NCBI GenBank assembly: GCA_017540505.1
Contig: JAFYAW010000037.1
Location: 17,533-81,532 of the forward strand
Length of the DNA: 64,000 nt
From: Bacteroidales bacterium
GTDB taxonomy: Bacteria > Bacteroidota > Bacteroidia > Bacteroidales > WCHB1-69
Direction: 5' to 3'
Both the position numbers and the translations under genes were made by a program. The notes under the pieces were generated by a model that searched no databases, was not told the DNA's origin, and worked only from the letters and a program-made list of their open reading frames with translations. Of this stretch, positions 4,525-58,860 are shown in pieces. Position 1 is the first letter of the stretch. Each line of letters opens with the position of its first letter.

Positions 4525-7392
4525 TTATCTATTACAAATATGCTTATAATCACAATAAAGGCACCGTTTCGGATCCGAAGCCTGCGTAAAAGGCTGCTTG
4601 GAATCCATTACCTTGGCCAACACCGCCGTCAAGGCCGTTTCTAGCTGCTGCAAGGTGTCTTCCGTCAGCAAAGGATCCAAAGCTACAAGCTTTTTCCCAT
4701 CCCGCGTGGCACACACCTCCGCTTTATGCAGACAATCCTCATGCCGGTTCGCATCGCGGATGCTGATGATGCCACACTGCAGACGATTCCTGTCGGGAAC
4801 TTTATTCAAAACCTCATGATCCGAATGGCGGCACAACATCGCATAAAATGCCAACTGCACAAACTGCGCATAGTCCGGATTTTTGAAATCATCCTCCAGC
4901 TCATTCAACGCCACCTTCAACTTGTCCTCATGCACCTTGCCCGTTTTATAATCCAAAATCACCAATTGTCCATCCTCCATCTGCAGGCGGTCAATCGTGC
5001 CTTTCAATATCAAAGAGGGACCTTCGGGAGCCAATGGCAGCGAAAATGAGAGTTTCAACTCATTACCCAGAATGGATATCTTCGTTTTCGTCCATTGCTC
5101 TTTGGCCATCTTCAGATAATTGACCACATCATTACGAATCATCTGAGCAGCCAGATACACCCGTCCATGCTCCAAATCTTTTTCCTTGAAACGAAGCTTG
5201 TACATATTCCTGAACTTCTCATCCTCCACCAGCAGATGCCGTATCTGCACATCCACCTCCTGTATAGCCTTGTCAAAAAACTCCGAAGCATGTTCAGGCT
5301 CGTCTTTTATTTTATTGAAAACATCCTCAAACAGCCTATGGACCACCGATCCGATAAGATTGCTCTCCATCCGGTTGGTAAAGATATCCGTACGCTGGAT
5401 ATTGCACAAGTGCTTAAGATAAAACTGCAACGGGCAGTTAATGAACACATTCAAGGCGGATGCTGAAAATTGGAATTGAGCCAATGTGTCCATGATCGGC
5501 TTATCCTTCTGCACCACGATGGTTTCCGGCTCCGACAGATGGAGGGGCAACGCCACGGACGGGTATTCCAACTGGATGTTGTCAAGATGCTGTTCGCGCA
5601 CCTCAAACTCCAACTGGCTAATAAAACGGCTCTTCTCCGACAGGCTGTCTCCATTCTGATCGTACACCAGCACCACATTCTCCGCCCGTTGGAGCAGCCT
5701 GAAAAAGTGGTAAGCGTACACCTGATCCTTGTACAGATAATTCTCCAGCGATTCACCGGCAAATTTGAAATCAAAGGGTATCAGCGAGTTGAAACTGATG
5801 CCCGCCGGCAGCACACCCTCATTGACGGAGAGCATGATGACGTTTTTGAAATCCAGCGTTCGTGTTTCCAGAAGCCCCATCACCTGCAGACCTTTGGTGG
5901 CATCGCCGCGAAGAGCCAACGTGAGGGCCTCCGCCTGCTGGTGGATGGCGAAGCGTACAAGGTGGAACGGCAAGGGCGCAACACCGGCCAATGGAGCCAG
6001 CAAACTCCCCACCTGTCGCAGACAGTCCAACAGCAAACCGGTCATAGCGCGGTCACGAGGATGGTCGGTTCTATAAAGTATCCATTCAAAATAGTCAATC
6101 AGTGCGGGCAGCACCCCCGACTCGTCCGCCGTGAACGACGGAAGCAGCCCCTCGCGGAACTCCCCGACAGGATACAACGCCGTATGCTGATAATTCTCCA
6201 AATTCTCCATCATCTGCTGGTATTCCGTCTCATCATCAAACAGATAACGCTGCACACAGACATTCCGGAACACGGCGGCCACATCCGCATAATGCCATAC
6301 CATCTGCCCGCCGTTCTGCATCATATAGCGCCTGCTGGTCTGGTACGCGACCAGCAGGTTCTCCATGAGCGCGTACACCGGTGTGGCCGATAGCGGGTAA
6401 CCCATCGTCACGTTGGCCTCCGACATATCGTATGTTGTCAACAGAGGAAGCAGCAGGGATTCATCGGCCAACACCAAAGCCGTGTTGTCCAGATTTCCCT
6501 GTTCCGCTTTGATCTGCTCCAAAAACTCCACCGCACAATACAACTGGTTCATGGTCTGGTCGGCCCCCACAATGCGGACACGTTTCGGCTGGTCGGCAAA
6601 ATGGCTATGCGTGAACAGGATTTTCTCTTTGGGCAAATCCAGCTTCTCACATATCTTGCTTAAAAAATGGGCCGTAGTGAAACGGGATTCCCTATTGAAA
6701 TCACAATAGAATGAGTCCACATCGAAATAGAAGCGGGTATCGAAATGCTCTTTCACATAGTGCACAATCTTCAATTCGGAAGGGGTAAGCACATGGAACC
6801 CGGCAAAGACATAGTGTTTATGTGTCAGTCGCTCCCTATACGCATCCATTTTCTCGGCGCAGTTGCGGTAGATAAGGCCGTCGTAGCCAACGCCCTCCCC
6901 TACCAGCTGCTGCCGGAATTGTACGTAGAGGTCGGCAAGCATATTGTACAGGTCCATCTTTTCCTGTTGCCCGGCACTCACATCATCCTGTCCGAAAGGA
7001 ATCTCAAAGGTCTTGGCCGCGGCCAGATCGCGGAACAGGCTCTGCCCGTCCTCCATCTGCATGTCAATCTCGGAGATGTCCTTCAGGAACGAGGGGGCCC
7101 ACGTCTGGATATCGTCAAAGTCCACCGGCACCTCGGGGCGCATCTGCCGATAGCAGACAAACAGCTTCACCCACAGCTCCATCTTACTGATTTTCTGCAG
7201 GGGGCTCAACTCGCCGACAAATTCGTCGATGGAACAGACCTTGGGAGAGAAAACCGGATGACCAGCCTCTTCGGCCAGCGTCTTCAACAGCATACGCTGG
7301 GCACGCCGATTGGGCAGCACAAAGAGAGTGTCCTCCAACGGAATGCCGAAAGCCAGGACATGTTGCGACAGCTCAGTGAGAAAACTAATCAT
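4525..7392 (-). CDS. PD-(D/E)XK nuclease, AddB-like helicase/nuclease subunit
   Basis: A 955-residue protein resembling the AddB half of AddAB-type recombination nucleases. The N terminus has a degenerate P-loop region (LFVLPNRRAQRMLLKTL), the middle is an inactive helicase-like core, and the C terminus carries a RecB-type nuclease (GTIDRLQ then VILDYKTGK). A late cysteine pair (CLYCDYKHIC) suggests the iron-sulfur cluster typical of AddB-like nucleases. It presumably works in double-strand-break processing with a UvrD-type AddA partner, which is not in this window. It follows lepA by 48 bases. The family is well recognised in Bacteroidota, usually unnamed. Confidence 0.88.
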   Translation of the reverse strand: MISFLTELSQHVLAFGIPLEDTLFVLPNRRAQRMLLKTLAEEAGHPVFSPKVCSIDEFVGELSPLQKISKMELWVKLFVCYRQMRPEVPVDFDDIQTWAPSFLKDISEIDMQMEDGQSLFRDLAAAKTFEIPFGQDDVSAGQQEKMDLYNMLADLYVQFRQQLVGEGVGYDGLIYRNCAEKMDAYRERLTHKHYVFAGFHVLTPSELKIVHYVKEHFDTRFYFDVDSFYCDFNRESRFTTAHFLSKICEKLDLPKEKILFTHSHFADQPKRVRIVGADQTMNQLYCAVEFLEQIKAEQGNLDNTALVLADESLLLPLLTTYDMSEANVTMGYPLSATPVYALMENLLVAYQTSRRYMMQNGGQMVWHYADVAAVFRNVCVQRYLFDDETEYQQMMENLENYQHTALYPVGEFREGLLPSFTADESGVLPALIDYFEWILYRTDHPRDRAMTGLLLDCLRQVGSLLAPLAGVAPLPFHLVRFAIHQQAEALTLALRGDATKGLQVMGLLETRTLDFKNVIMLSVNEGVLPAGISFNSLIPFDFKFAGESLENYLYKDQVYAYHFFRLLQRAENVVLVYDQNGDSLSEKSRFISQLEFEVREQHLDNIQLEYPSVALPLHLSEPETIVVQKDKPIMDTLAQFQFSASALNVFINCPLQFYLKHLCNIQRTDIFTNRMESNLIGSVVHRLFEDVFNKIKDEPEHASEFFDKAIQEVDVQIRHLLVEDEKFRNMYKLRFKEKDLEHGRVYLAAQMIRNDVVNYLKMAKEQWTKTKISILGNELKLSFSLPLAPEGPSLILKGTIDRLQMEDGQLVILDYKTGKVHEDKLKVALNELEDDFKNPDYAQFVQLAFYAMLCRHSDHEVLNKVPDRNRLQCGIISIRDANRHEDCLHKAEVCATRDGKKLVALDPLLTEDTLQQLETALTAVLAKVMDSKQPFTQASDPKRCLYCDYKHICNR

Positions 7393-7440: not shown

Positions 7441-9228
7441 TTAATCCAGTTTCAGGACGGCGAGGAATGCCGACTGCGGCACCTGCACATTTCCAATCTG
7501 ACGCATACGCTTCTTACCGCGCTTCTGTTTTTCAAGCAGCTTGCGCTTACGGGTGATATCGCCACCGTAGCACTTGGCCGTCACGTCCTTACGGACGGCC
7601 TTCACCGTCTCGCGGGCAATGATCTTAGAGCCGATGGCCGCCTGGATGGCTATGTCGAACTGCTGGCGCGGGATGAGCTCCTTCAGCTTCTCGCAGATGC
7701 GACGGCCGAACGAATACGCGTTATCGGAGTGGATGAGGGCAGAGAGCGCATCCACGGAGTCGCCGTTCAGCAGAATGTCAAGTTTCACCAGACTAGCCGG
7801 CTTGAAGTCCGTGATATGATAGTCGAAAGAGGCATAACCTTTGGAAATGCTCTTCAGTTTGTCGTAAAAGTCGAAAACGATTTCACCCAACGGCATATCG
7901 AAGGTGAGCTCTATACGGTTGGCGGCCACATACATCTGGTTGACGAGCGAGCCGCGCTTGTCGATACAGAGCTTCATGATGGAGCCGATGTAATCATCCT
8001 TGGAGATGATCTGGGCACGGATGTAGGGTTCCTCCACATGGTCAATCTCCGTGGGGGCCGGCATTCCCGACGGGTTGTAAACATCGAGCCACTGTTTCTT
8101 GGTGGTCAGCACCTTGTAGGAGACGTTCGGCACGGTGGCGATCACGTCCTGGTCGAACTCGCGGTCGAGGCGTTCCTCCACAATCTCCATGTGGAGCAGG
8201 CCGAGGAATCCGCAGCGGAAGCCGAAGCCGAGGGCGGCTGACGATTCCGGCTCGAAAGTCAGGGAGGCATCGTTGAGTTTCAGTTTCTCCAACGAGGCGC
8301 GCAGCTCCTCATACTGGTCAGCCTCTGTGGGGTAGATGCCGGCGAAGAGCATCGGCTTCACCTCCTGGAACCCCTCGATGGCCGTCTCGCATGGGCGCGC
8401 CACATGGGTGATGGTGTCGCCCACCTTCACCTCCGAGGATGTCTTGATGCCCGTGATCAGATAACCCACGTCGCCGGCGGAGAGTACGTCCTTCGGCACA
8501 CGGTCCATCTTCAGAATGCCGATCTCATCCGCATCATACTCTTTCTTGGTGGCGAAGAACTTCACCATATCATGCGCATGAACCGTGCCGTTGAAGATAC
8601 GGAAATAGGCGATGATGCCGCGGAAGGAGTTGAACACAGAGTCGAAGATGAGGGCTTGCAGCGGCGCATCGGGGTCGCCTTTCGGGGCGGGAATGCGCTC
8701 AATGATGGCCTGCAGGATCTCCTCCACGCCCTGGCCGGTCTTGCCCGAGGCTTCAATGATGTCGGACTCGTCGCAGCCGAGCAGGTCCATAATCTGATCC
8801 TTCACCTCTAAGGGCATGGCGGCGGGCATATCCATCTTGTTGAGTACGGGAATGATTTCCAAGTCGTTATCAATAGCCTGGTAGAGGTTGGAAATGGTCT
8901 GTGCCTGTACGCCCTGGGTGGCGTCCACCAGCAGCAGCGCGCCCTCGCACGCGGCGATGGAGCGCGACACCTCGTAGGAGAAGTCCACGTGACCCGGCGT
9001 GTCGATGAGGTTCAGAATATATTTCTCCCCGTTATACACATATTCCATCTGGATAGCGTGGCTCTTGATGGTGATACCGCGCTCGCGCTCCAGATCCATG
9101 TCGTCGAGCACCTGATTCTGGAACTCGCGGTCGTTGACGGTCTTAGTATATTGGAGAAGCCTGTCGGCCAACGTGCTCTTGCCGTGGTCGATATGGGCGA
9201 TAATGCAGAAATTTCGGATATGTTTCAT
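7441..9228 (-). CDS. lepA: Elongation factor 4 (LepA), ribosome back-translocase GTPase
   Basis: A translational GTPase that acts on stalled or improperly translocated ribosomes and in 30S biogenesis. It is 595 residues, normal for LepA. The start is set at ATG 9228 ([19 protein letters not shown]), which keeps the G1 motif AHIDHGKST at the usual distance; six upstream codons in frame would read into the promoter. G3 (DTPGHVDF), G4 (NKMD) and the LepA C-terminal domain ([21 protein letters not shown]) are visible. A -7 box lies 8-15 bases upstream of the start. It shares a divergent promoter region with the DUF456 gene. Confidence 0.98.
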
Positions 9229-9235
9229 AAGGCGG

Positions 9236-9243
9236 CAAAGATA
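9236..9243 (-). promoter_or_regulatory. -7 box for lepA
   Basis: TATCTTTG on the minus strand matches the Bacteroidota consensus TAnnTTTG. It lies just upstream of lepA and back-to-back with the DUF456 box. Confidence 0.75.
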
Positions 9244-9255
9244 CAAAAAAAAGAA

Positions 9256-9816: not shown

Positions 9817-11292
9817 TTATTTCCTCACCTTCTTCACGAACTCCTCCACTTCCGGCACGCCGCCTTGATAGACGAGGTAGCCGTCGTAGGGCTCGCGTTT
9901 GGTGATTTCGTCGTTGATGGGAGTGAGCATCAGCTTCTTCACATCCTCTCGTTTTTGACCGCTGTCCTTGGTAAGGCCCAAAGCCCAACCGAGCTTGATG
10001 TAAGAACTTTCCGCCAGCATGTTGTCGGCGGGGATGATGCCGCGCGCCATCATGTCGCGGCCGGTGTCATAGACGAACATGTGGGTGTAGCCCCAGATGG
10101 TCTGCACGCTCATGTACTGGTGCACACCCGCGTCAGTGGCCCGCTGGATGGCATCGAACATGTGCTTGTTGACGTGCCCGAGGCCGGTGCCGTCCCACAC
10201 AATGCCCTTGTAACCGTTGTCGATCAAGGCATCCAACACATCGGGTTTCATGCCCGGATAGTAGTAAAGGATGGCCACACGATCGTCAAAGGTGGGCACA
10301 ATGCGCGTGACGTTGGGGTCGTTCTTGGCGATGCTGCGCTTGTAGTCCTCGTAGTTGGTGATGACCTCCACCTGACGGTGCTGCTCGCCCCGGCGGCGGT
10401 GGTTATAAACCTCCTTGATGGGTTGCACGCCGTCCTTGCGGTTCACAGTGGCTAACGGCGTGTCGCCGATGGTACGGAACGTGGAACGGTACGAGCTGTG
10501 CATCTTGCGCACGCGCGTGCCACGGTGCAGGAAGCCGTAGTCATCGGAGGTGGGTCCGAACATGCAGACCATTACCTCAGCGATGTCGCCGTGACCGGCA
10601 GCCGTCATCGCGTGCATCAGGTTCAATGCGGCATCAGAACTCGGACGGTCGGAGCTGCGCTGCGAACCGACCAGCACCACCGGCATGGGCAGGTTTTGGC
10701 ACATGTATGTCAAGGCGGTGGCGGTGTGCGCCAACGTGTCGGTACCATGACCGATCACGATGCCCTCAATGCCAGCTTTGATCTCGTCGCCAATCTTTTG
10801 GGCCAGAGCCTTGTATTCCACAGGCGACATGTTCTCGGAGAAGACGGCGAAGACCTTCTCGGTCTCCAGATTGCAGATGTCGGCCAGCTCGGGCACAGCG
10901 CCGTACAACTCGCCAGGCGAGAAAGCGGGAATCACCGCACCGGTACGATAGTCGAGGCGCGAGGCGATGGTGCCGCCTGTACCTAATAGCTTCACGTGCG
11001 GAAGCCCGGGCGTGTAGGGGAACTCCTTCTCCGGAATCTTGAACACGGGCTGCGGGTCGCGCTCGCCCTTCATGTCGGTCACCGTCTCGATGTCGATGCC
11101 GATGTTGTAGCCCGTGGCCACTTTCATCACGATGTGGATGTCGTCGGTGTTCTCGGCGCGGGGAAGGATCTTGCCCGAGAAGTGTCCGCGCGTGGTCTCA
11201 ACCTCGGCCTTGTCCCACACGTGAACGTCATATTTTTTGAGCATCTCCAATGCTCTTCCTTTATATCCTTGGAATGTGGTTTTGTCGTCCAT
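9817..11292 (-). CDS. gatD: Archaeal-type Glu-tRNA(Gln) amidotransferase subunit D
   Basis: The glutaminase (asparaginase-like) subunit of GatDE, which releases ammonia to convert Glu-tRNA(Gln) to Gln-tRNA(Gln). It is 491 residues. The N-terminal ~90 residues form the small beta domain found in GatD but not in plain asparaginases (DKAEVETTRGHFSGKILPRAE). The amidohydrolase core follows: TGGTIAS at 105-111, GHGTDT at 181-186 and Lys 263 (RVRKMHSS), the Thr/Thr/Asp/Lys set of this family. The gatE gene lies 61 bases upstream on the same strand, which supports GatD over a simple L-asparaginase. It is somewhat longer than archaeal GatD because of a basic insert near residue 310. GatDE is best known from Archaea, so transfer is likely. 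Confidence 0.93.
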   Translation of the reverse strand: MDDKTTFQGYKGRALEMLKKYDVHVWDKAEVETTRGHFSGKILPRAENTDDIHIVMKVATGYNIGIDIETVTDMKGERDPQPVFKIPEKEFPYTPGLPHVKLLGTGGTIASRLDYRTGAVIPAFSPGELYGAVPELADICNLETEKVFAVFSENMSPVEYKALAQKIGDEIKAGIEGIVIGHGTDTLAHTATALTYMCQNLPMPVVLVGSQRSSDRPSSDAALNLMHAMTAAGHGDIAEVMVCMFGPTSDDYGFLHRGTRVRKMHSSYRSTFRTIGDTPLATVNRKDGVQPIKEVYNHRRRGEQHRQVEVITNYEDYKRSIAKNDPNVTRIVPTFDDRVAILYYYPGMKPDVLDALIDNGYKGIVWDGTGLGHVNKHMFDAIQRATDAGVHQYMSVQTIWGYTHMFVYDTGRDMMARGIIPADNMLAESSYIKLGWALGLTKDSGQKREDVKKLMLTPINDEITKREPYDGYLVYQGGVPEVEEFVKKVRK

Positions 11293-11307
11293 ATATAATA
11301 TTGTTTG

Positions 11308-11339
11308 TTGTAGAGACGCAATGCATTGCGTCTCTACAA
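11308..11339. repeat. Perfect 32-bp palindrome between gatE and gatD
   Basis: The sequence from 11308 to 11339 is its own reverse complement, centred on ATGCAT, with arms TTGTAGAGACGCAATG. It lies in the 61-base spacer between gatE and gatD. Related sequences occur at 58833-58860 and, as one half, at 63841-63860, so it is a dispersed repeat and not a gat-specific site. It could form a strong hairpin in the gatED transcript. Confidence 0.9.
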
Positions 11340-11353
11340 ATTTATTATTCAGT

Positions 11354-13321
11354 TTATAATGTTGTTATCGCATTGGCCAGTTCAGAAAACGAGACATTAC
11401 CTACGGCCAACGGACGTATGGTGCCAAGCATCGTGTTCCTAAGGTCGGCGCCATCTTCTATCTTACGATTGCGACGCTGTTTGAACGTGTCGGCAACCTG
11501 GAACATGCGCTCCATAAGATCCTGCTTTGAAGCTTTGGCGTAGCCCGTAAGTTTCAGCAGTTCCTCAAAGGATGCCGTCGGGCGCTCAAACATCAGCTTC
11601 AGCATATCCAACGCGATGCCCTTGTCGAGGTTCTCTTTCTTCAGGAAGGCGAACAGGTCGTAGAGCTTACATGTACAAAATGGGATACTGCCATGCTGGC
11701 CGTGCTCGTGTTTCAGGCGCTGGCCGAAGAAGGTGCCCAGATATTTGGGACAATAGCCGAGCTCGTCGGCGATCTTCTTGATAATCGGGAAGAGATTGTG
11801 GGTGAAGATGTACTTGAAGCAGTCTTGCGGCACACCCCAAGCCACCATCTGTGCGTAACGGTCGGCGACGGCATCGGGGATGTTCTTGCGAAGCTCTTCG
11901 ATATAATCGTTGGTGAGCGGGATAGGAGCCGAGTCGGTATCAGGGTACATACGGTCGGCGCCGGGCAGCACGCGCTCGAAGATGGTAGTGCCGTCGGTCA
12001 GAGCCTTACGGGTCTCCTGCGGCACACCGTCAAAGGCCATCAGGGCACGCTCCTCGATAGTCTCAAGAGCAGTCTTCACATCGTCTTCGGCAGCCCAGAA
12101 TATGATCTGCGCGTCATTGTCGCCAGCGTTCATGGCCTTGGCGGCCTTCTCGAAGACGCTGCGGCTCACCACATCCTCCAAATCCTCGCTGGTGGCCATA
12201 TTGGGACGCTCTAAGCAAGCGATGACCTTCAGACGGTCGGCAAACTCGCTATAGAAGGGATGGCCGGGTTGGGTGAAATGAGAGAGCAGACCTGCAAATT
12301 GCGGCAGATTCACGGCATACACCTTAGCACCACTCTTGATGGCGTCGGTGATGGGGTCGAAGTAGAAATGGAACTCCTTGGGATCCAATTCCGTATAGCT
12401 CATTTTCCAATCCTCTTTCTTGATGCGGCTCTTGAGTTGCTCGCGGATGGCAAGCAGGGCCCATTGGCGGAAGCACTCCACGTGGGTGACCTCCGGAATC
12501 CACTTTGTGTGGGCCACACCCTTGACCTCGATACGAGTGCCGCCAGTGCAGCTCACGTTCACGTCCTCACGGCCCGCGCCGATACCTGTACGCACACGGC
12601 CCGTGCTGCGGTTCAGGAAGCGGATGTAGTTGCAGGCTTCCTCCACCTCGTCGGGGTTCACCATCTCGGGGTAGGTCACCGTCTCAATCAGCGGCATACC
12701 CAAACGGTCGGTGCGATAGACGCGCGTATGGCCGATGTCGGACACTTCGCGGCAGGCATCCTCCTCCACACTGAGCTGGATGAGGCGCACTTTCTTGTTC
12801 TTCAGCTGTATCTCGCCGTCAATACCCAAGATAGCGGTCCGCTGGAATCCCGTCGGGATGGAGCCGTCGAGGTACTGTTTGCGGGTGATGTGCACCTCGC
12901 CCACGATTTTAAGCTTAGAGGCAAGGGCTATCTCAAGGGCGTATTGCAGGGCCTCGGGGTTGATGGGGAACGGAGGCGTGTCATCGACCTCATACGTGCA
13001 CGCAGTGCGGTGCGCGATGCGATAGACGATATTCTTACGGGTTTTGAACTCCATGAGCGCCGTGCCGTCATACTCGCCCATCTCAGAGAGCGTGGGACGC
13101 ATGTGACGCAACAGTTCCGCGTCGAATTCGTCGGGTTTCTGGAAGATGCCGGCAGGGCAGCGGCAGAAGAGTTTCTCTTTGGTGGCCAGTTGCTGGTGCA
13201 CCTCCAGCCCGGACATGAAGCCGATGCGGTCGTAGTCGGCCTGCGTGGCCTCCTTGCGGTCCACATAGCCGATGGCATTGCGGCTTTTCTCGTAATTTTC
13301 TTGAGGATTGATAGTTTGCAT
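11354..13321 (-). CDS. gatE: Archaeal-type Glu-tRNA(Gln) amidotransferase subunit E
   Basis: The tRNA-binding and transamidating subunit of GatDE, 655 residues, close to archaeal GatE. The GatB/GatE cradle motif is clear near the N terminus (GLEVHQQLATKEKLFCRCP), followed by the FKTRKNIVYR and GIDGEIQLKNKKVRL regions. A long internal insert (about residues 280-420, DYIEEL... and PDTDSAPIPL regions following) fits the AspRS-like GAD insert that separates GatE from GatB. A helical and YqeY-like tail ends the protein. Start ATG 13321; a -7 box lies at 13385-13392. gatD follows in the same direction. No gatA, gatB, gatC or glnS is in the window. Confidence 0.95.
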   Translation of the reverse strand: MQTINPQENYEKSRNAIGYVDRKEATQADYDRIGFMSGLEVHQQLATKEKLFCRCPAGIFQKPDEFDAELLRHMRPTLSEMGEYDGTALMEFKTRKNIVYRIAHRTACTYEVDDTPPFPINPEALQYALEIALASKLKIVGEVHITRKQYLDGSIPTGFQRTAILGIDGEIQLKNKKVRLIQLSVEEDACREVSDIGHTRVYRTDRLGMPLIETVTYPEMVNPDEVEEACNYIRFLNRSTGRVRTGIGAGREDVNVSCTGGTRIEVKGVAHTKWIPEVTHVECFRQWALLAIREQLKSRIKKEDWKMSYTELDPKEFHFYFDPITDAIKSGAKVYAVNLPQFAGLLSHFTQPGHPFYSEFADRLKVIACLERPNMATSEDLEDVVSRSVFEKAAKAMNAGDNDAQIIFWAAEDDVKTALETIEERALMAFDGVPQETRKALTDGTTIFERVLPGADRMYPDTDSAPIPLTNDYIEELRKNIPDAVADRYAQMVAWGVPQDCFKYIFTHNLFPIIKKIADELGYCPKYLGTFFGQRLKHEHGQHGSIPFCTCKLYDLFAFLKKENLDKGIALDMLKLMFERPTASFEELLKLTGYAKASKQDLMERMFQVADTFKQRRNRKIEDGADLRNTMLGTIRPLAVGNVSFSELANAITTL

Positions 13322-13384: not shown

Positions 13385-13392
13385 CAAATATA
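13385..13392 (-). promoter_or_regulatory. -7 box for gatE-gatD
   Basis: TATATTTG on the minus strand matches TAnnTTTG, 63 bases before the gatE ATG. It leaves an AT-rich leader. Confidence 0.7.
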
Positions 13393-13430
13393 AGAAAATC
13401 GTTTGAAATTTTACATATTCTCATTTTTTG

Positions 13431-13438
13431 TATTTTTG
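13431..13438 (+). promoter_or_regulatory. -7 box for small lipoprotein gene
   Basis: TATTTTTG, followed by a leader of about 105 bases that carries the hairpins described at 13445-13509. Confidence 0.75.
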
Positions 13439-13444
13439 CCGCAT

Positions 13445-13509
13445 CAAATCTTTCCACAAAAGATGGAAAGCACTATTTGAAAGGCTGTGCGGGCTCGCCA
13501 ATCAAATAG
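13445..13509 (+). promoter_or_regulatory. Structured leader with mutually exclusive hairpins
   Basis: CAAATCTTTCCA (13445-13456) can pair with TGGAAAG (13464-13470) and ATTTG (13475-13479). The same CTATTTGA (13473-13480) is also perfectly complementary to TCAAATAG (13502-13509). The two foldings compete for one strand, as in an attenuator. No T-tract or known riboswitch core was recognised, so a regulatory role is inference. Confidence 0.4.
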
Positions 13510-13548
13510 GAAACAAAACAATATGAGTCCGAAAAAAAATGTGAAAAA

Positions 13549-13776
13549 ATGAAGAAAGTTCTTTTACTGGTTGCTGTTGCCAGCGCCTTTATGTTCGCCG
13601 GATGCAAGAAAACTTGCAACTGCACTTCCACGCAACAATTCCCAGATGAACCCGCCTATGTGACTCACACGACCTTAACCATTGAAAAAGGCAAATGTTC
13701 GGATATGAATGCCGAACAGACCACCACGATCGATGGGGAAACGATTTCACAAAAAGTAGAATGCGTGCAAGAGTAA
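13549..13776 (+). CDS. Small predicted lipoprotein
   Basis: A 75-residue protein with a lipoprotein signal peptide: MKKVLLLVAVASAFMFAGC, lipobox Cys at residue 19. The mature part is short and polar with three further cysteines (KKTCNCTST, GKCSDMN, KVECVQE), which could form disulfides in the periplasm. I do not recognise a family. It has its own promoter at 13431 and terminator at 13801, so it is a single-gene unit. A long leader with alternative hairpins suggests regulated expression. Confidence 0.75.
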   Translation: MKKVLLLVAVASAFMFAGCKKTCNCTSTQQFPDEPAYVTHTTLTIEKGKCSDMNAEQTTTIDGETISQKVECVQE

Positions 13777-13795
13777 CCAACGCACCACGTATGAC

Positions 13796-13828
13796 AAAAA
13801 AGGACCGATTCTTTCGGTCCTTTTTTTT
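13796..13828 (+). terminator. Intrinsic terminator after lipoprotein gene
   Basis: AGGACCGA (13801-13808) pairs with TCGGTCCT (13814-13821) and is followed by a run of T to 13828. The upstream A-run extends the stem. Confidence 0.92.
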
Positions 13829-13880
13829 GTAAATACAATTTTTTCCATCTGGTCTCTCTTCTAAAAGCATTCTTTTTTTG

Positions 13881-13888
13881 TACCTTTG
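13881..13888 (+). promoter_or_regulatory. -7 box for Y-family polymerase operon
   Basis: TACCTTTG (TAnnTTTG) lies 50 bases before the ATG at 13938. Confidence 0.72.
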
Positions 13889-13937
13889 CATCCCATTCGT
13901 ACCATTAAACTTATTTTCATAATCCTTTGAAACAAAG

Positions 13938-15449
13938 ATGGAAGAGCGGCAGCGGACCTATATCGCCATCGACCTGAAGTCGTTTTACGCCTCGGTGGAG
14001 TGCGTGGAGCGCGGCTTGGACCCGCTGACCACCAATCTGGTAGTGGCCGACAGGAGCCGCACGGAGAAGACCATCTGCCTGGCCGTGTCGCCCTCGCTGA
14101 AGCAGTACGGCATCGGCGGACGGGCGCGCCTCTTCGAGGTGGTGCAACGGCTACGCCAGGTGAACGCCGAACGCCGCATGCAGGCCCACAACCGCCGCCT
14201 CACCGGCAAGTCTGTCTCCGACCTCGACCTGCGGGCACATCCCGACTGGGAGGTGGACTACATCACCGCCCCACCCCGCATGGCCCACTACATGCACTTC
14301 AGCGCGAAAATCTATGAGACTTATCTCCAATACGTTGCCCCTGATGACATCCACGTCTATTCCATCGATGAAGTCTTCATCGACGTGACTGATTATCTCA
14401 AGAACTATCGCATGACAGCCCACGAGCTGGCCATGACGATGATCCGCGATGTGCTGCGCCAGACGGGCATCACCGCCACGGCGGGCATCGGCAGCAACCT
14501 CTATCTTTGCAAGGTGGCCATGGATATTATGGCCAAGAAGCAGCCCGCCGACAGCGACGGCGTGCGCATCGCCGAACTCGACGAGATGAGCTACCGCCGC
14601 CAACTCTGGGACCACCGTCCGCTGACGGACTTCTGGCGTGTGGGACGCGGCACCGTGAACCGGCTGGCACAATACGGCATTGACACCATGGGCAAAATAG
14701 CCCGATGCTCCGTCCGGGACGAGGAGCTGCTGTACCGCCTTTTCGGCGTGAATGCCGAGCTGCTCATCGACCACGCCTGGGGCTGGGAGCCCTGCACCCT
14801 CGACCTGGTGAAGGCCTACCGCCCCGAAAGCAACTCATTCAGCAACGGGCAGGTGCTGAGCACCCCCTACCCCGTCAAGAAAGCCCGCGTGGTCATGCTG
14901 GAGATGGCCGATGCCATGTCCCTGAAGCTGGTGGACAAACGGCTCGTCACCGACCAGCTGATGCTAAGCATTAGCTATGACGCTGAAAACCTGACCAACC
15001 CATCCATCCGAGAGAAATACCAGGGGCCTGTCACGACGGACCATTACGGGCGGCAGGTACCCAAGCACGCCCACGGGACCGCCCGACTAGACAAAGCCAC
15101 CTCTTCTTCCAAGATTATCCTGGACGAAACGGCCAAACTCTTTGACCGAATCGCAAACCCCGACCTGCTGGTCCGCTACCTGAACATCACCGTTGGCCAT
15201 GTAATGGACGAACAACTGGCTAACACACAAGAGGATGCCCTTCAATTGGACCTTTTCGCTGATTACGAGGCGTTGGAACGGCAGAAACAGGAGCAGGCGG
15301 CGGCTCTGCAAAAGGAACGCAAGATTCAGGAGGCGCAGCTGGCCATCAAACGGAAGTTCGGGAAAAACGCCATCCTGAGAGGTTTGAATTTCGAGGATGG
15401 GGCCACGGCCCGCGACCGCAACCAACAGATAGGAGGACACAAAGCATGA
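13938..15449 (+). CDS. Y-family (UvrX/UmuC-like) translesion DNA polymerase
   Basis: A 503-residue error-prone polymerase predicted to bypass DNA lesions. The palm residues are visible: Asp 12 in YIAIDLKSFYASVE and Asp 144/Glu 145 in VYSIDEVFID. The fingers region (residues 35-70) lacks the short DinB spacing and resembles the UvrX/YqjW group. Helix-hairpin-helix and little-finger domains follow. The C terminus is a charged helix (ERQKQEQAAALQKERKIQEAQ). The stop overlaps the start of a YolD-like gene (ATGA), an arrangement known for UvrX-YolD pairs of Firmicutes. No LexA box was identified. Confidence 0.9.
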   Translation: MEERQRTYIAIDLKSFYASVECVERGLDPLTTNLVVADRSRTEKTICLAVSPSLKQYGIGGRARLFEVVQRLRQVNAERRMQAHNRRLTGKSVSDLDLRAHPDWEVDYITAPPRMAHYMHFSAKIYETYLQYVAPDDIHVYSIDEVFIDVTDYLKNYRMTAHELAMTMIRDVLRQTGITATAGIGSNLYLCKVAMDIMAKKQPADSDGVRIAELDEMSYRRQLWDHRPLTDFWRVGRGTVNRLAQYGIDTMGKIARCSVRDEELLYRLFGVNAELLIDHAWGWEPCTLDLVKAYRPESNSFSNGQVLSTPYPVKKARVVMLEMADAMSLKLVDKRLVTDQLMLSISYDAENLTNPSIREKYQGPVTTDHYGRQVPKHAHGTARLDKATSSSKIILDETAKLFDRIANPDLLVRYLNITVGHVMDEQLANTQEDALQLDLFADYEALERQKQEQAAALQKERKIQEAQLAIKRKFGKNAILRGLNFEDGATARDRNQQIGGHKA

Positions 15450-15652
15450 CTACAAATTACGACGATATCATCAACCTTCCGCACCACGTGTCGAAAAAGC
15501 ATCCACAGATGCCAATGATAGCGCGTGCCGCCCAGTTCGCTCCATTCTCGGCCCTTACCGGCTACGGCGAAGAGATCCGGAAGTCGGCTAAGAATGTGGA
15601 AGAAACGTATGAGGAAGAGGATTATTTCTCACAGTTCGACAATGAGCTGTAA
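15446..15652 (+). CDS. YolD-like small protein paired with Y-family polymerase
   Basis: A 68-residue protein with the signature DIINLPHHVSKKHPQMPMIARAAQFAPFSALTGY, typical of the small YolD-type proteins found next to UvrX-like polymerases. The start ATG overlaps the polymerase stop by four bases, so the two are translationally coupled. Its function is not settled; the family is thought to be an accessory or antagonist of the polymerase. An acidic tail (EETYEEEDYF) ends the protein. Confidence 0.85.
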   Translation: MTTNYDDIINLPHHVSKKHPQMPMIARAAQFAPFSALTGYGEEIRKSAKNVEETYEEEDYFSQFDNEL

Positions 15653-15687
15653 AAAAAAACTGAAAACCACAATTCTGTGATTTTCAG
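15651..15687 (-). terminator. Intrinsic terminator of tRNA-Glu
   Basis: On the minus strand CTGAAAA...TTTTCAG (15660-15687, 11 of 14 pairs) is followed by nine T (complement of A 15651-15659), six bases after the tRNA CCA. Confidence 0.85.
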
Positions 15688-15693
15688 CGTTTC

Positions 15694-15771
15694 TGGTAGC
15701 GAGTAGGAGATTCGAACTCCTGATCTTCAGGATGAAAACCTGACGTCCTGGGCCAACTAGACGAACTCGCC
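15694..15771 (-). tRNA. tRNA-Glu (anticodon UUC)
   Basis: A complete cloverleaf on the minus strand: acceptor GGCGAGT/ACTCGCT (first pair G-U), anticodon stem TCAGG/CCTGA with loop TTTTCAT giving anticodon TTC, T-loop TTCGAAT, discriminator A and an encoded CCA (15694-15696). A -7 box lies at 15795 and a terminator directly follows. In an organism using GatDE, tRNA(Gln) and not this tRNA would be the amidation substrate. Confidence 0.96.
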
Positions 15772-15794
15772 ATCAACGTCGTTTTTTGACGGTG

Positions 15795-15802
15795 CAAAAA
15801 TA
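15795..15802 (-). promoter_or_regulatory. -7 box for tRNA-Glu
   Basis: TATTTTTG on the minus strand, 23 bases before the tRNA 5' end. Confidence 0.75.
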
Positions 15803-15849
15803 CACTTTTTTTCGTTTGCTCAACTAATCTGTTGAAAAAAAGCAGAAAG

Positions 15850-16521
15850 CTACTCCGTCTTATCCTGTTCAAACCTGAATCCCAGACGTTTACCAGTCTT
15901 TATAAGATTCTGGTCCTCAATCTGCAACATGTCGTCCACCGTAATAATCTTGGTTTCCTCGTAATCCGGGACCAACAAATCGAAATTAATCGTGTAAGTC
16001 AACGCAGAACGCAGAATTTCATCCACCGCCTCCTTGCTAATCTGATTCGTACTGAAATTGTTCAGCACACGCGAAAGCTCACGCTTGCCTTCAATATAAT
16101 AATGCCCCTCCTTATTAATCAGAATACGACCGATCATATACCCCAAGTCATTCACACGATTATACTTGAAGGAATCACTCAAGAAGTTGAAGATCTGAAT
16201 CATACCACAATAGGAACGGGTTTTGTCCTCCTTGATATAGGTGGAGCGCATCACCTCGTGCTCGCGCGAAAACTCAAAGATGTTACTATGCATCAGGAAA
16301 ACCAGCACATCGCCGGCAAATTTCAACTGAAACTGGTACTGGTTCTTATTCGTATATAAAACCGGCACATCTTCATGGTCATCCGCATAATTGTTGCGGT
16401 AGAAATCCTCGAATCCTTTGGCACAATCCTTAAACATCTGCATGGCGTCAAGCGTGACAGCAAAAACATCCTGCTTCAATTGTCCTTTGGAAATCAATAA
16501 GTTACATAAGGAATCATCCAT
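15850..16521 (-). CDS. Conserved hypothetical protein, 223 residues
   Basis: A soluble, charged protein with no signal peptide or membrane segment. It begins MDDSLCNLLISKGQLKQDVF and contains aromatic-rich stretches (YTNKNQYQFQLKFAGDVLVF, FNFLSDSFKYNRVNDLGYMIG). I recognise no catalytic motif; the style is that of a conserved Bacteroidales cytosolic protein of unknown function. It has its own -7 box at 16548-16555, 27 bases upstream, and lies between tRNA-Glu and the GH89 gene. Confidence 0.85.
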   Translation of the reverse strand: MDDSLCNLLISKGQLKQDVFAVTLDAMQMFKDCAKGFEDFYRNNYADDHEDVPVLYTNKNQYQFQLKFAGDVLVFLMHSNIFEFSREHEVMRSTYIKEDKTRSYCGMIQIFNFLSDSFKYNRVNDLGYMIGRILINKEGHYYIEGKRELSRVLNNFSTNQISKEAVDEILRSALTYTINFDLLVPDYEETKIITVDDMLQIEDQNLIKTGKRLGFRFEQDKTE

Positions 16522-16547
16522 ATTTTACATATATTGGTTTAATGCGG

Positions 16548-16555
16548 CAAAGATA
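16548..16555 (-). promoter_or_regulatory. -7 box for 223-residue hypothetical
   Basis: TATCTTTG on the minus strand, 26 bases before the start codon. Confidence 0.75.
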
Positions 16556-16576
16556 CAAAATTATAGCATGTGCGTC

Positions 16577-18739
16577 TCACCTGACCTCACCATAAAATTG
16601 GCTCATATAACAGCTATATATTTTAAGAGCCTCATCCCTGGTGTTTTTGCGCGGGGAAACGGCATAATGCGTGTGGCGGCGAGTCCAGTCCTGCTCAAAA
16701 GCCGAAAGTTTCTCATCAAAGGCTTTTTCATCAAAGGATTTCCCCTGGCGGGCACATCGCATCACCTCGCGGAAGAACATATCCCATCGCTTGGTATAAT
16801 AGTCCTTCACCAGTCCACCCCACATGCGGTTGGCATAGTCATTCAGGACGGGACCACCCCATATTGTAAGGATTGTCCGGGCCTGCTGCTCGAAATAGTC
16901 CTTCTCCGCCGGCGTTGAGCCCCACGCACGAGCATCCTCAATCCACGGTCCGAGCATAAAGGAGGGGTGCGTGGAGAGCAGTCTGTCAACATCCCGGAAC
17001 AGCCTGTCAGCCAGCTTCTTCTGTTGAGCCATCCCCTTTAAATCCCCGTTTTTATAGGCTACCGTGAAACTGTCGCGCACCGTCATAAAATAGTTGCCCA
17101 TCCATTGAGACATCAAGTTCACGATATCATATTGAAGCGCATCTTTCATACGCACATCCAAAACCGAACTAAGCAGTTGCCTGCATATCCGGCCGAGCGT
17201 GTCATTGGAATAGGAATATGCCGGCTTCGTGTAGTAGGTGCCATGTCCCTCCAGCGACGGTCGGGCCACCAGCTGCGTACCAAGGCCGTAAAACGATTTG
17301 TCCTTATACACACTGTCATTCAACAACTTCCACTCCTCATTGAAAAGCGCATGTCCGCAACGGAGTTGAGCCCAATCGGCCATCCAGGCATCCACATCGG
17401 GATGGGATTCCCAAGCACGGCTGAAAAGGTATTCGTAGATTTGCGGGCTCACGTCAAAGGCCTCCAAGGTGGAACCGATGCCCGTCATGTTGGGTCCAGC
17501 CTCGCGCAAGGCAGCCGACAGCCGTTCTTCCAGATCGTGAATATTGCCCACCAGCATCGTATTACCTCCGAAATTGCCCAAATAGCACCATATAAAAGGC
17601 TGTCCGAAAAAGGATTCCGTGGTGCGCCACACCTCAGTTTTCTCGCAGAAATAGTCCAGCAGGATCAGTCTCTTGCGGGGCACCGCCGACAGATAGGCCC
17701 GCAGGCGTTCCGTGGTCCATGACTTGCGCTTGTAGTAGAACACCCACGTCATCTGCAGCCATCGGGCATCGGGATCAGCCTTCCGCAAAGAGTAGTAGAT
17801 GTTTTCCGACACATCCGAAAGATACTCCGGCTGCCATTTCGGCGGGTCCATTTCATTGAACGGGTCCACCCCATAGATATGGTCGGTACCGAACAAGGCT
17901 ATCTCCTTCTCCATAAAACGTTTCTGGATCTCCGAGAAGAGCGGATCGGAGGAGTTCAGGAAATGGGTAGGGGCAAAGCCGCACCAGGCACTCAACGGTT
18001 TGATGTCCGCCTCCGGATGCATTTCGGCGAAACGGACGGGCACATGCCCTGCGAAGGCGGGCAGCACCGGAGTCATGCCCAACTCGCGCTCCCTTTCTAA
18101 AATCCGTTTCTGAAGCTCCTTCTGGCCCTCTATCCACGACATCGGCAGCGGGCCGCCGAAACCATCGAGATTGGCCATGCGGTGCCAGGGAAGATGCGCC
18201 GGACCGGAGAAGTAGCCACGGATCTCCTCGTCACTCAAGCCGTATTCTTTCCACACATCGTACCAGACAGCCTCCTGCCCGGTGATCGCTAACGGCATCG
18301 TGATGCCATGCAACGCCATCCAGTCAATGAAACGCTCCCACTGCTCCCATTTCCACCATGGCATCGTGTACCCGAAAGTACAGTAATTGAGGAAGAAACG
18401 TTCCTTCACAAGGGCTTCTCTGCGCACCGGCTCCGTAACCAGCGGGTAAGAGCTTGGAAGCTCCACCGGCTCGTGCGCGTGCCACGACACATACACATGC
18501 GCATAATGCTGCAGGTAATAATTGAGCCCCATCGCTAACGAGTTGTCATTGTTGCCGACAATCCGTATTTTACCGTCCACAGACTCCAACTGGAAATAAT
18601 CCAAGGTGTCGGGCTGGCATACGAACACAAAATTCGTGTCATCGGCCCCCAAAATCCGATGGGCAAGACGCTCTATCGGGCGGGCAGATGCCGCCTCCAA
18701 GCCGCACATTATGGCAAGACAAATGAAAACCTGTTTCAT
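16577..18739 (-). CDS. Alpha-N-acetylglucosaminidase, glycoside hydrolase family 89
   Basis: A 720-residue secreted enzyme predicted to remove terminal alpha-linked GlcNAc, as in mucin caps or heparan-type glycans. A signal peptide (MKQVFICLAIMCGLEAASA) precedes the N-terminal domain. The TIM barrel carries NYCTFGYTMPWWKWEQWERF, typical of NAGLU, with a probable acid/base Glu near residue 296 (GVDPFNEMDPP) and probable nucleophile Glu near 426 (STLEAFDVSPQIYEY). A helical C-terminal domain follows. It is the last gene of the run nadB-mtaB-M16-beta-helix-GH89, 32 bases after the beta-helix stop. No SusC/SusD pair is adjacent. Confidence 0.94.
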   Translation of the reverse strand: MKQVFICLAIMCGLEAASARPIERLAHRILGADDTNFVFVCQPDTLDYFQLESVDGKIRIVGNNDNSLAMGLNYYLQHYAHVYVSWHAHEPVELPSSYPLVTEPVRREALVKERFFLNYCTFGYTMPWWKWEQWERFIDWMALHGITMPLAITGQEAVWYDVWKEYGLSDEEIRGYFSGPAHLPWHRMANLDGFGGPLPMSWIEGQKELQKRILERERELGMTPVLPAFAGHVPVRFAEMHPEADIKPLSAWCGFAPTHFLNSSDPLFSEIQKRFMEKEIALFGTDHIYGVDPFNEMDPPKWQPEYLSDVSENIYYSLRKADPDARWLQMTWVFYYKRKSWTTERLRAYLSAVPRKRLILLDYFCEKTEVWRTTESFFGQPFIWCYLGNFGGNTMLVGNIHDLEERLSAALREAGPNMTGIGSTLEAFDVSPQIYEYLFSRAWESHPDVDAWMADWAQLRCGHALFNEEWKLLNDSVYKDKSFYGLGTQLVARPSLEGHGTYYTKPAYSYSNDTLGRICRQLLSSVLDVRMKDALQYDIVNLMSQWMGNYFMTVRDSFTVAYKNGDLKGMAQQKKLADRLFRDVDRLLSTHPSFMLGPWIEDARAWGSTPAEKDYFEQQARTILTIWGGPVLNDYANRMWGGLVKDYYTKRWDMFFREVMRCARQGKSFDEKAFDEKLSAFEQDWTRRHTHYAVSPRKNTRDEALKIYSCYMSQFYGEVR

Positions 18740-58832: not shown

Positions 58833-58860
58833 GTAGGGACGCGCCATGGCACGTCTCTAC
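58833..58860. repeat. Imperfect palindrome, second copy of 11308 repeat family
   Basis: GTAGGGACGCGCC...GGCACGTCTCTAC is a 28-bp near-palindrome with one mismatch and one G-T pair, related to the 11308-11339 palindrome (GTAGAGACGC arms). It lies in the short gap between two convergent genes and may help terminate both. Confidence 0.8.

Follow-up and report, generated by a model that had tools for sequence, protein, structure and literature searches.

Background

In PMC9499178, GatDE is described as the enzyme that converts Glu-tRNA(Gln) to Gln-tRNA(Gln), and that 2022 review states that it is now found only in archaea. A 2014 paper reports no known bacterium with both routes to Gln-tRNA(Gln). 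Here we describe adjacent gatE and gatD genes of a rumen-type Bacteroidales bacterium (lineage WCHB1-69, assembly GCA_017540505.1), located in a stretch of 64,000 nucleotides of contig JAFYAW010000037.1 (positions 17,533 to 81,532), which we refer to as the window. The genome also encodes a complete glutaminyl-tRNA synthetase (GlnRS). The pair is a genuine variant that occurs widely, an amidotransferase of the GatDE type housed by bacteria that have retained GlnRS. NCBI models already name such proteins GatD and GatE, and these genes are probably already annotated; no paper on GatDE in Bacteroidota was found in a literature search to which most subscription papers were out of reach.

Identification of gatE and gatD

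The two genes lie on the minus strand, gatE upstream and gatD second, with a gap of 61 nt. Both open reading frames (ORFs) are full-length and are situated, adjacent and on one strand, where the earlier note on this DNA had placed them. The genes and their domains are as follows.

11354..13321, minus strand: gatE, 655 aa; 404.6 bits against TIGR00134 (gatE_arch), over the cut-off of 319.55; PDB 2d6f_C, E value 3e-86
11897..13213, minus strand: GatB/GatE catalytic (cradle) region, GatE residues 37-475; PF02934 (GatB_N), E value 8.6e-47
12086..12352, minus strand: insert, GatE residues 324-412; weak match to GAD (PF02938), aligning with the archaeal GatE insert
11357..11896, minus strand: C-terminal helical and tail region, GatE residues 476-655; diverged
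9817..11292, minus strand: gatD, 491 aa; 460.1 bits against TIGR02153 (gatD_arch), over the cut-off of 324; PDB 2d6f_A, E value 4.6e-102
11080..11220, minus strand: GatD_N domain, GatD residues 25-71, N-terminal to the asparaginase domains; PF18195, E value 3.2e-10
9949..10995, minus strand: asparaginase-like glutaminase domains, GatD residues 100-448, with T108, T184, D185 and K263; PF00710 and PF17763 (Asparaginase, Asparaginase_C)

Judged by family models and alignments, it is near certain that both proteins belong to the GatDE family. GatE scored 454.1 bits against a second GatE model, NF003107, slightly below its cut-off of 456, and 110.8 bits against the gatB model TIGR00133, far below the cut-off of 314.8. 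Its alignment with TIGR00134 reaches position 570 of 622. GatD reached 458.4 bits against NF003217 (cut-off 310). It also passed the type I asparaginase model TIGR00519 (339 bits, cut-off 260.5), which is expected for a homologue. The best solved structures for both subunits were the archaeal GatDE complexes 2d6f and 1zq1. Trees were quick ones, built without bootstrap and with long branches flagged, and held three archaeal GatE rows and two archaeal GatD rows. In the GatE tree, 46 GatE rows (43 bacterial, 3 archaeal) were placed on one side of a branch and six GatB rows on the other, with a Shimodaira-Hasegawa-like approximate likelihood ratio (SH-aLRT) of 100. The family scores and this split rule out a misnamed GatB. 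A plain asparaginase is ruled out for GatD by its higher score with gatD_arch than with TIGR00519, by the GatD_N domain and by the adjoining gatE. Thus, the archaeal-type GatDE proposed in the earlier note was upheld over GatB plus a plain asparaginase.

The active-site residues have been kept in both subunits. In the alignment with 2d6f, GatD T108, T184, D185 and K263 correspond to T101, T177, D178 and K254 (labels that we take to be those of the structure), and all four were invariant in 41 bacterial rows. GatE H42, E186 and E213 align with H15, E157 and E184 of 2d6f and were invariant in 43 GatE rows; these cradle His/Glu/Glu residues presumably serve the metal and ATP site. The extra N-terminal GatD domain, the Thr/Thr/Asp/Lys set and the GatE cradle had all been named from the letters alone, and each was borne out. 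The GatE insert matched PF02938 with an E value of 0.0016 and 19 bits, below the cut-off of 23.4, and 21 of the 43 rows matched this family at E 0.01. Ahead of the cradle (13321 to ~13236), members of the Bacteroidales-type clade share a conserved stretch of ~28 residues that the matched part of archaeal GatE lacks.

Pairing of the two genes is the rule: they were found on the same strand and at most 300 nt apart in 85 of the 90 fetched loci in which both were found, the other 5 having an intervening gene or a longer gap. Another 15 fetched loci had no gatD match, most of them ending close by.

Coexistence with GlnRS

The genome (2.5 Mb in 51 contigs, rated 91% complete) contains two class Ic synthetases, GlnRS and glutamyl-tRNA synthetase (GluRS). 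The GlnRS of 543 aa aligned end-to-end (2-542) with that of E. coli at 733 bits; the GluRS of 509 aa had its best match in Elizabethkingia GluRS (595 bits). By its GatA and GatB subunits, GatCAB was not detected: the genome had no match to the GatA-type amidase family PF01425, in a search whose control was positive in 12 of 14 genomes, and no GatB over the cut-off. The only PF02934 match in this 91% complete genome was the gatE of the window, leaving no second GatB or GatE. All 38 tRNA matches were read with ARAGORN, and two were tRNA-Gln (UUG and CUG), both with U1-A72 and A73. A tRNA-Glu(UUC) gene is present in the window at 15694-15771; it is separated from gatE by 2.4 kb that contain further genes.

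In an even sample of the order (198 genomes), 84 had a GatE that exceeded the family cut-off; in an even sample of the phylum this was so for 30 of 395, our own genome counted. For comparison with GlnRS within the order, genomes were scored GatE-positive at E <1e-80 (n = 86, the 84 plus two genes cut by contig ends) and GlnRS-positive at E <1e-70 (181 genomes, 177 over the curated cut-off). GlnRS was present in 79/86 GatE-positive and 102/112 GatE-negative genomes (Fisher p = 1). When only GatE-positive order genomes of at least 90% completeness were considered, 67 of 69 contained GlnRS. The two exceptions, G478 and G518, have same-genus partners with GlnRS: G590, which has no GatE, for G478, and G620, which has GatE, for G518.

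The phylum sample gave GlnRS over cut-off in 27 of 30 GatE-positive genomes (own genome included) versus 169 of 365 negative ones (p = 1.8e-6, but same-family genomes are not independent). Its three GatE-positive genomes without GlnRS were G251, G287 and G314. The latter two, rated 99% complete, carry GatE and a GatB-like gene; these genomes possibly have two amidotransferases and no direct route.

A search for relatives found 126, from which 80 loci were kept. Nearly all were titled as Bacteroidales or Bacteroidetes metagenome-assembled genomes, from rumen, sediment, digester and termite-type sources; three were named Neomarinimicrobiota and one Aminicenantes. Among the genomes of 50 of the 80 loci, by our own reading of score and frame length, 40 had a GlnRS-type match, 4 had a GluRS alone, one had a fragment and five had neither; some of these genomes overlap the order sample. 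GatDE accompanies GlnRS in these bacteria, whereas in archaea it stands in for GlnRS.

These results bear directly on the inference in the earlier note that tRNA(Gln) amidation by GatDE is the route to Gln-tRNA(Gln) of this lineage, in place of GlnRS and GatCAB. The absence from the genome of a GatA-type amidase and of a second GatB or GatE agrees with such a replacement, as do G478 and G518, which are near-complete and have GatE but gave no GlnRS match. However, the search for glnS that the note had suggested yielded a full GlnRS in the same genome. Moreover, GlnRS is equally frequent with and without GatE across the order, and G620, of the same genus as G518, has both. Replacement is therefore highly improbable, and the sole-route inference was dropped. 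With GlnRS present, GatDE is an added activity and not a replacement.

Phylogeny, selection and patchy occurrence

The branching order of the archaeal GatE rows, the two bacterial clades and a lone row (L174) was left unsettled by the tree. The GatD tree separated archaea (two rows) from bacteria, as did that of GatE. The stem of the Bacteroidales-type GatE clade was long, 1.6-1.8 changes per column versus 0.5 for GatD. Rows of Neomarinimicrobiota fell within the Bacteroidota clade, a placement that suggests either misbinning or transfer from one bacterial phylum to another. The G + C content of gatE (56.4%) and gatD (58.6%) lies within the range of the two neighbouring genes (56.4% and 59.9%) and thus gives no hint of recent acquisition. 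Of the horizontal gain proposed earlier, the grouping of GatE with archaeal GatE stands; a direction or date is not settled by three archaeal rows.

Both genes are under strong purifying selection. Against close relatives, the median ratio of nonsynonymous to synonymous substitution rates (dN/dS) was 0.079 for gatE (0.041-0.15 over 34 comparisons) and 0.034 for gatD (0.014-0.096 over 31 comparisons); these values are rough, as dS was often near or above 0.5 and, among the rows printed, as high as 1.6.

Occurrence is patchy. When mapped on a tree of GluRS from 70 genomes, the presence of GatE changes 19 times, at least 6 of these changes being forced by well-supported branches. GatE labels lean to clustering, the shuffled mean being 23.6 changes, and 20 of 500 shuffles were as low as 19. 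This patchiness, together with neighbouring genes that are not conserved, is what would be expected of a vestigial or selfish pair that has no current function and has been spread by transfer. On the other hand, a dN/dS of 0.03-0.08 and invariant active sites argue against such a pair, no linked mobile-element gene was seen, and 14 stretches of viral contigs that fitted a pattern encoded no relative. We consider this explanation improbable. The 24 plasmid records included, by score, one archaeal GatE (Natrinema); among the 20 listed, the rest were weak and several were annotated gatB. The Natrinema thermotolerans record (CP031304.1, L176) has an unannotated GatE-like frame at 4914-6344, which leaves the GatE frame after ~355 codons.

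Proposed role of GatDE beside GlnRS

We propose that the products of gatE and gatD form a functional amidotransferase of the GatDE type that acts beside GlnRS on Glu-tRNA(Gln) made by GluRS, as a repair or second route; we put the probability of this at about 0.55. The data themselves show family membership, retained active-site residues, a conserved pair of genes, purifying selection and the coexistence with GlnRS; activity, substrate and role are our interpretation. GluRS would form Glu-tRNA(Gln) through mischarging or in minor amounts. GatD would release ammonia from glutamine (or asparagine), and GatE would activate the side chain of the glutamate on Glu-tRNA(Gln) with ATP and then amidate it, converting the product of GluRS to Gln-tRNA(Gln). 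Because GlnRS makes Gln-tRNA(Gln) directly, we infer that the GluRS-made Glu-tRNA(Gln) is the substrate. A second route could become important under a shortage of GlnRS or of free glutamine. More tentatively, and with rather less confidence, many Bacteroidales and some other bacteria may hold GatDE next to GlnRS for repair by amidation of misacylated Glu-tRNA(Gln), a fidelity step undescribed for bacteria.

Several findings weigh against the proposed role. The tail of GatE, the tRNA-binding part, is its most diverged portion. Three loci (L050, L052 and L068) have gatE but no gatD within the ~8 kb fetched downstream. Of two other genomes of the same genus as ours, G562 has GatE and G445, rated 99% complete, has none, showing that GatDE is dispensable.

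The two partners of the enzyme also show little sign of having been shaped by it, and the GluRS comparisons gave no independent indication that GluRS forms Glu-tRNA(Gln) here. GluRS was compared in 80 genomes searched, of which 70 sequences were used (37 GatE-positive, 33 GatE-negative); left out were five over the cut-off that were not fetched (G450, G452, G466, G469, G555) and five without a full GluRS match (G460, G474, G480, G493, G543). The position of Thermus GluRS Arg358, which we take to be the residue tied to tRNA discrimination, was Arg in 70/70 sequences, GatE-positive and GatE-negative alike. It is also Arg in the Borrelia GluRS 4gri, from a bacterium presumably without GlnRS, so this test fails its control. 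The largest difference of any GluRS column by GatE status was 0.53, marginally above chance, as the highest value among 200 shuffles of the labels was 0.50; such shuffles ignore kinship, and the GluRS of our own genome lacks the two residues enriched in GatE-positive genomes. On these alignments, GluRS appears to have no clear adaptation to GatDE.

For tRNA-Gln, U1-A72 was present in 32 of 33 printed sequences, one end being unreadable (L195), and position 73 was A in 31 and G in one (L206). Of these 33 sequences, 10 came from GatE-positive and 23 from GatE-negative genomes, and no difference was seen between them; the sample is biased, as no more than 68 of the 198 genomes yielded tRNAs with the search pattern. 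Ends were read by eye. In this sample, tRNA-Gln shows no convincing adaptation to GatDE.

The main rival is a retooled enzyme, in which the cradle and glutaminase have been kept but, with the diverged tail, the substrate would no longer be the Glu-tRNA(Gln) of bulk translation; it could be a different tRNA or some other molecule that bears glutamate. GatE identity between the two bacterial clades is ~63% in the cradle versus 12-21% from residue 475 onward, and the YqeY-like tail family PF02637 had no match in the window GatE at E 0.01, where 27 of 43 rows do match. The long GatE stem, against 0.5 changes per column for GatD, points in the same direction, and GlnRS would make the former job unneeded. 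On the opposite side, tail identity is also low within clades (27-45%), and for most GatE of the order sample the alignment still extends almost to the last positions of the archaeal profile. The complete catalytic set of the cradle is kept as well. Taking both sides together, we regard retooling as unlikely, while repair or a second route beside GlnRS remains our preferred reading.

Gene neighbourhood and intergenic features

The regions around the two genes contain the following.

13385..13392, minus strand: TAnnTTTG box (TATATTTG), possible -7 element, 64 nt upstream of the gatE start; by eye
11308..11339, no strand assigned: perfect 14-bp palindrome with a loop of 4, in the gatE-gatD gap; dispersed repeat

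The earlier note had given the pair its own promoter. The TAnnTTTG box, whose consensus we take to be that of the -7 element, is in place (13392-13385). A pattern search of the 64-kb window gave 0 matches to a full Bacteroidota-type promoter pair, and the 4 sigma-70-like promoter matches, versus a shuffle mean of 2.8, are at about chance level. Therefore, only the box is left of that claim.

The palindrome reads TTGTAGAGACGCAA-TGCA-TTGCGTCTCTACAA. A second copy with 2 mismatches is present in the window at 58833-58860, and exact cores were found in L148 (another contig of the same genome), L004, L009, L012, L017, L022, L029 and L030. Of 30 close loci that contain both genes, three (L004, L022 and L030) have it inside the same gatE-gatD gap.

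The genes on either side, read by eye from the ORF list, are LepA-like (7441-9246) and Y-family-polymerase-like (13938-15449), in agreement with the plainly bacterial flanks described before. Between gatE and the polymerase-like gene, also by eye, is a small plus-strand ORF (~13549-13823) that resembles a lipoprotein gene, with a terminator-like hairpin 3' of it. Apart from the gatE-gatD pairing, neighbours are not conserved; the next most widespread cluster was found in 9 loci.

An assembly of 51 contigs at 91% completeness, and the fact that none of the eight printed fetched relatives shares the stretch beyond 9.8 kb, could suggest an assembly or binning artefact. Against this, gatE loci of 95% identity are present in other assemblies, and the order sample has GatE in 84 of its 198 genomes. 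Two loci (L005 and L031) carry sequence of the 13428-17281 type on the gatE contig, with ~3.5 kb extra before gatE. The check for a chimeric contig thus came out clean: similar pairs are present in many separate assemblies, so a chimera cannot explain gatE and gatD, and we give an artefact hardly any credence.

Comparison with known systems

The occurrence of GatDE together with GlnRS in one bacterial order contradicts the statement that GatDE is confined to archaea, and makes the statement that no bacterium has both routes testable. It also bears on the argument that co-evolution of GatDE with archaeal tRNA-Gln bars exchange between domains. Archaeal tRNA-Gln has A1-U72 according to PMC9499178, and here GatDE is found with a bacterial tRNA-Gln. 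If the repair reading is true, bacteria of gut and sediment would possess a hitherto unrecognized fidelity step.

The closest described systems are the archaeal GatDE of Methanothermobacter (2d6f) and Pyrococcus abyssi (1zq1), which share with our pair both subunits, GatD_N, the glutaminase and cradle residues, and an insert at the same place. Our pair differs in its bacterial host with GlnRS, in a tRNA-Gln with U1-A72, in the diverged GatE tail and in the ~28 extra N-terminal residues of the Bacteroidales-type clade. Known GatDE hosts are without GlnRS, and its presence here weakens the claim of a same role, not that of family membership. Type I and II asparaginases have the fold of GatD, which differs by its GatD_N domain, its higher gatD_arch score and its gatE partner. 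In bacterial GatCAB, the GatB subunit belongs to the same cradle fold family (PF02934) and has the same catalysis; the window GatE is placed outside the GatB clade, at about a third of the gatB cut-off, in a genome without a detected GatA-type amidase. Finally, bacteria with GlnRS and GatCAB (Bdellovibrio and others) resemble this host in having direct and indirect machinery in one genome, and in PMC4206432 their amidotransferase is taken to serve Asn-tRNA(Asn). GatDE is described as a Glu-tRNA(Gln) enzyme (PMC9499178), so that explanation is not open for the pair described here.

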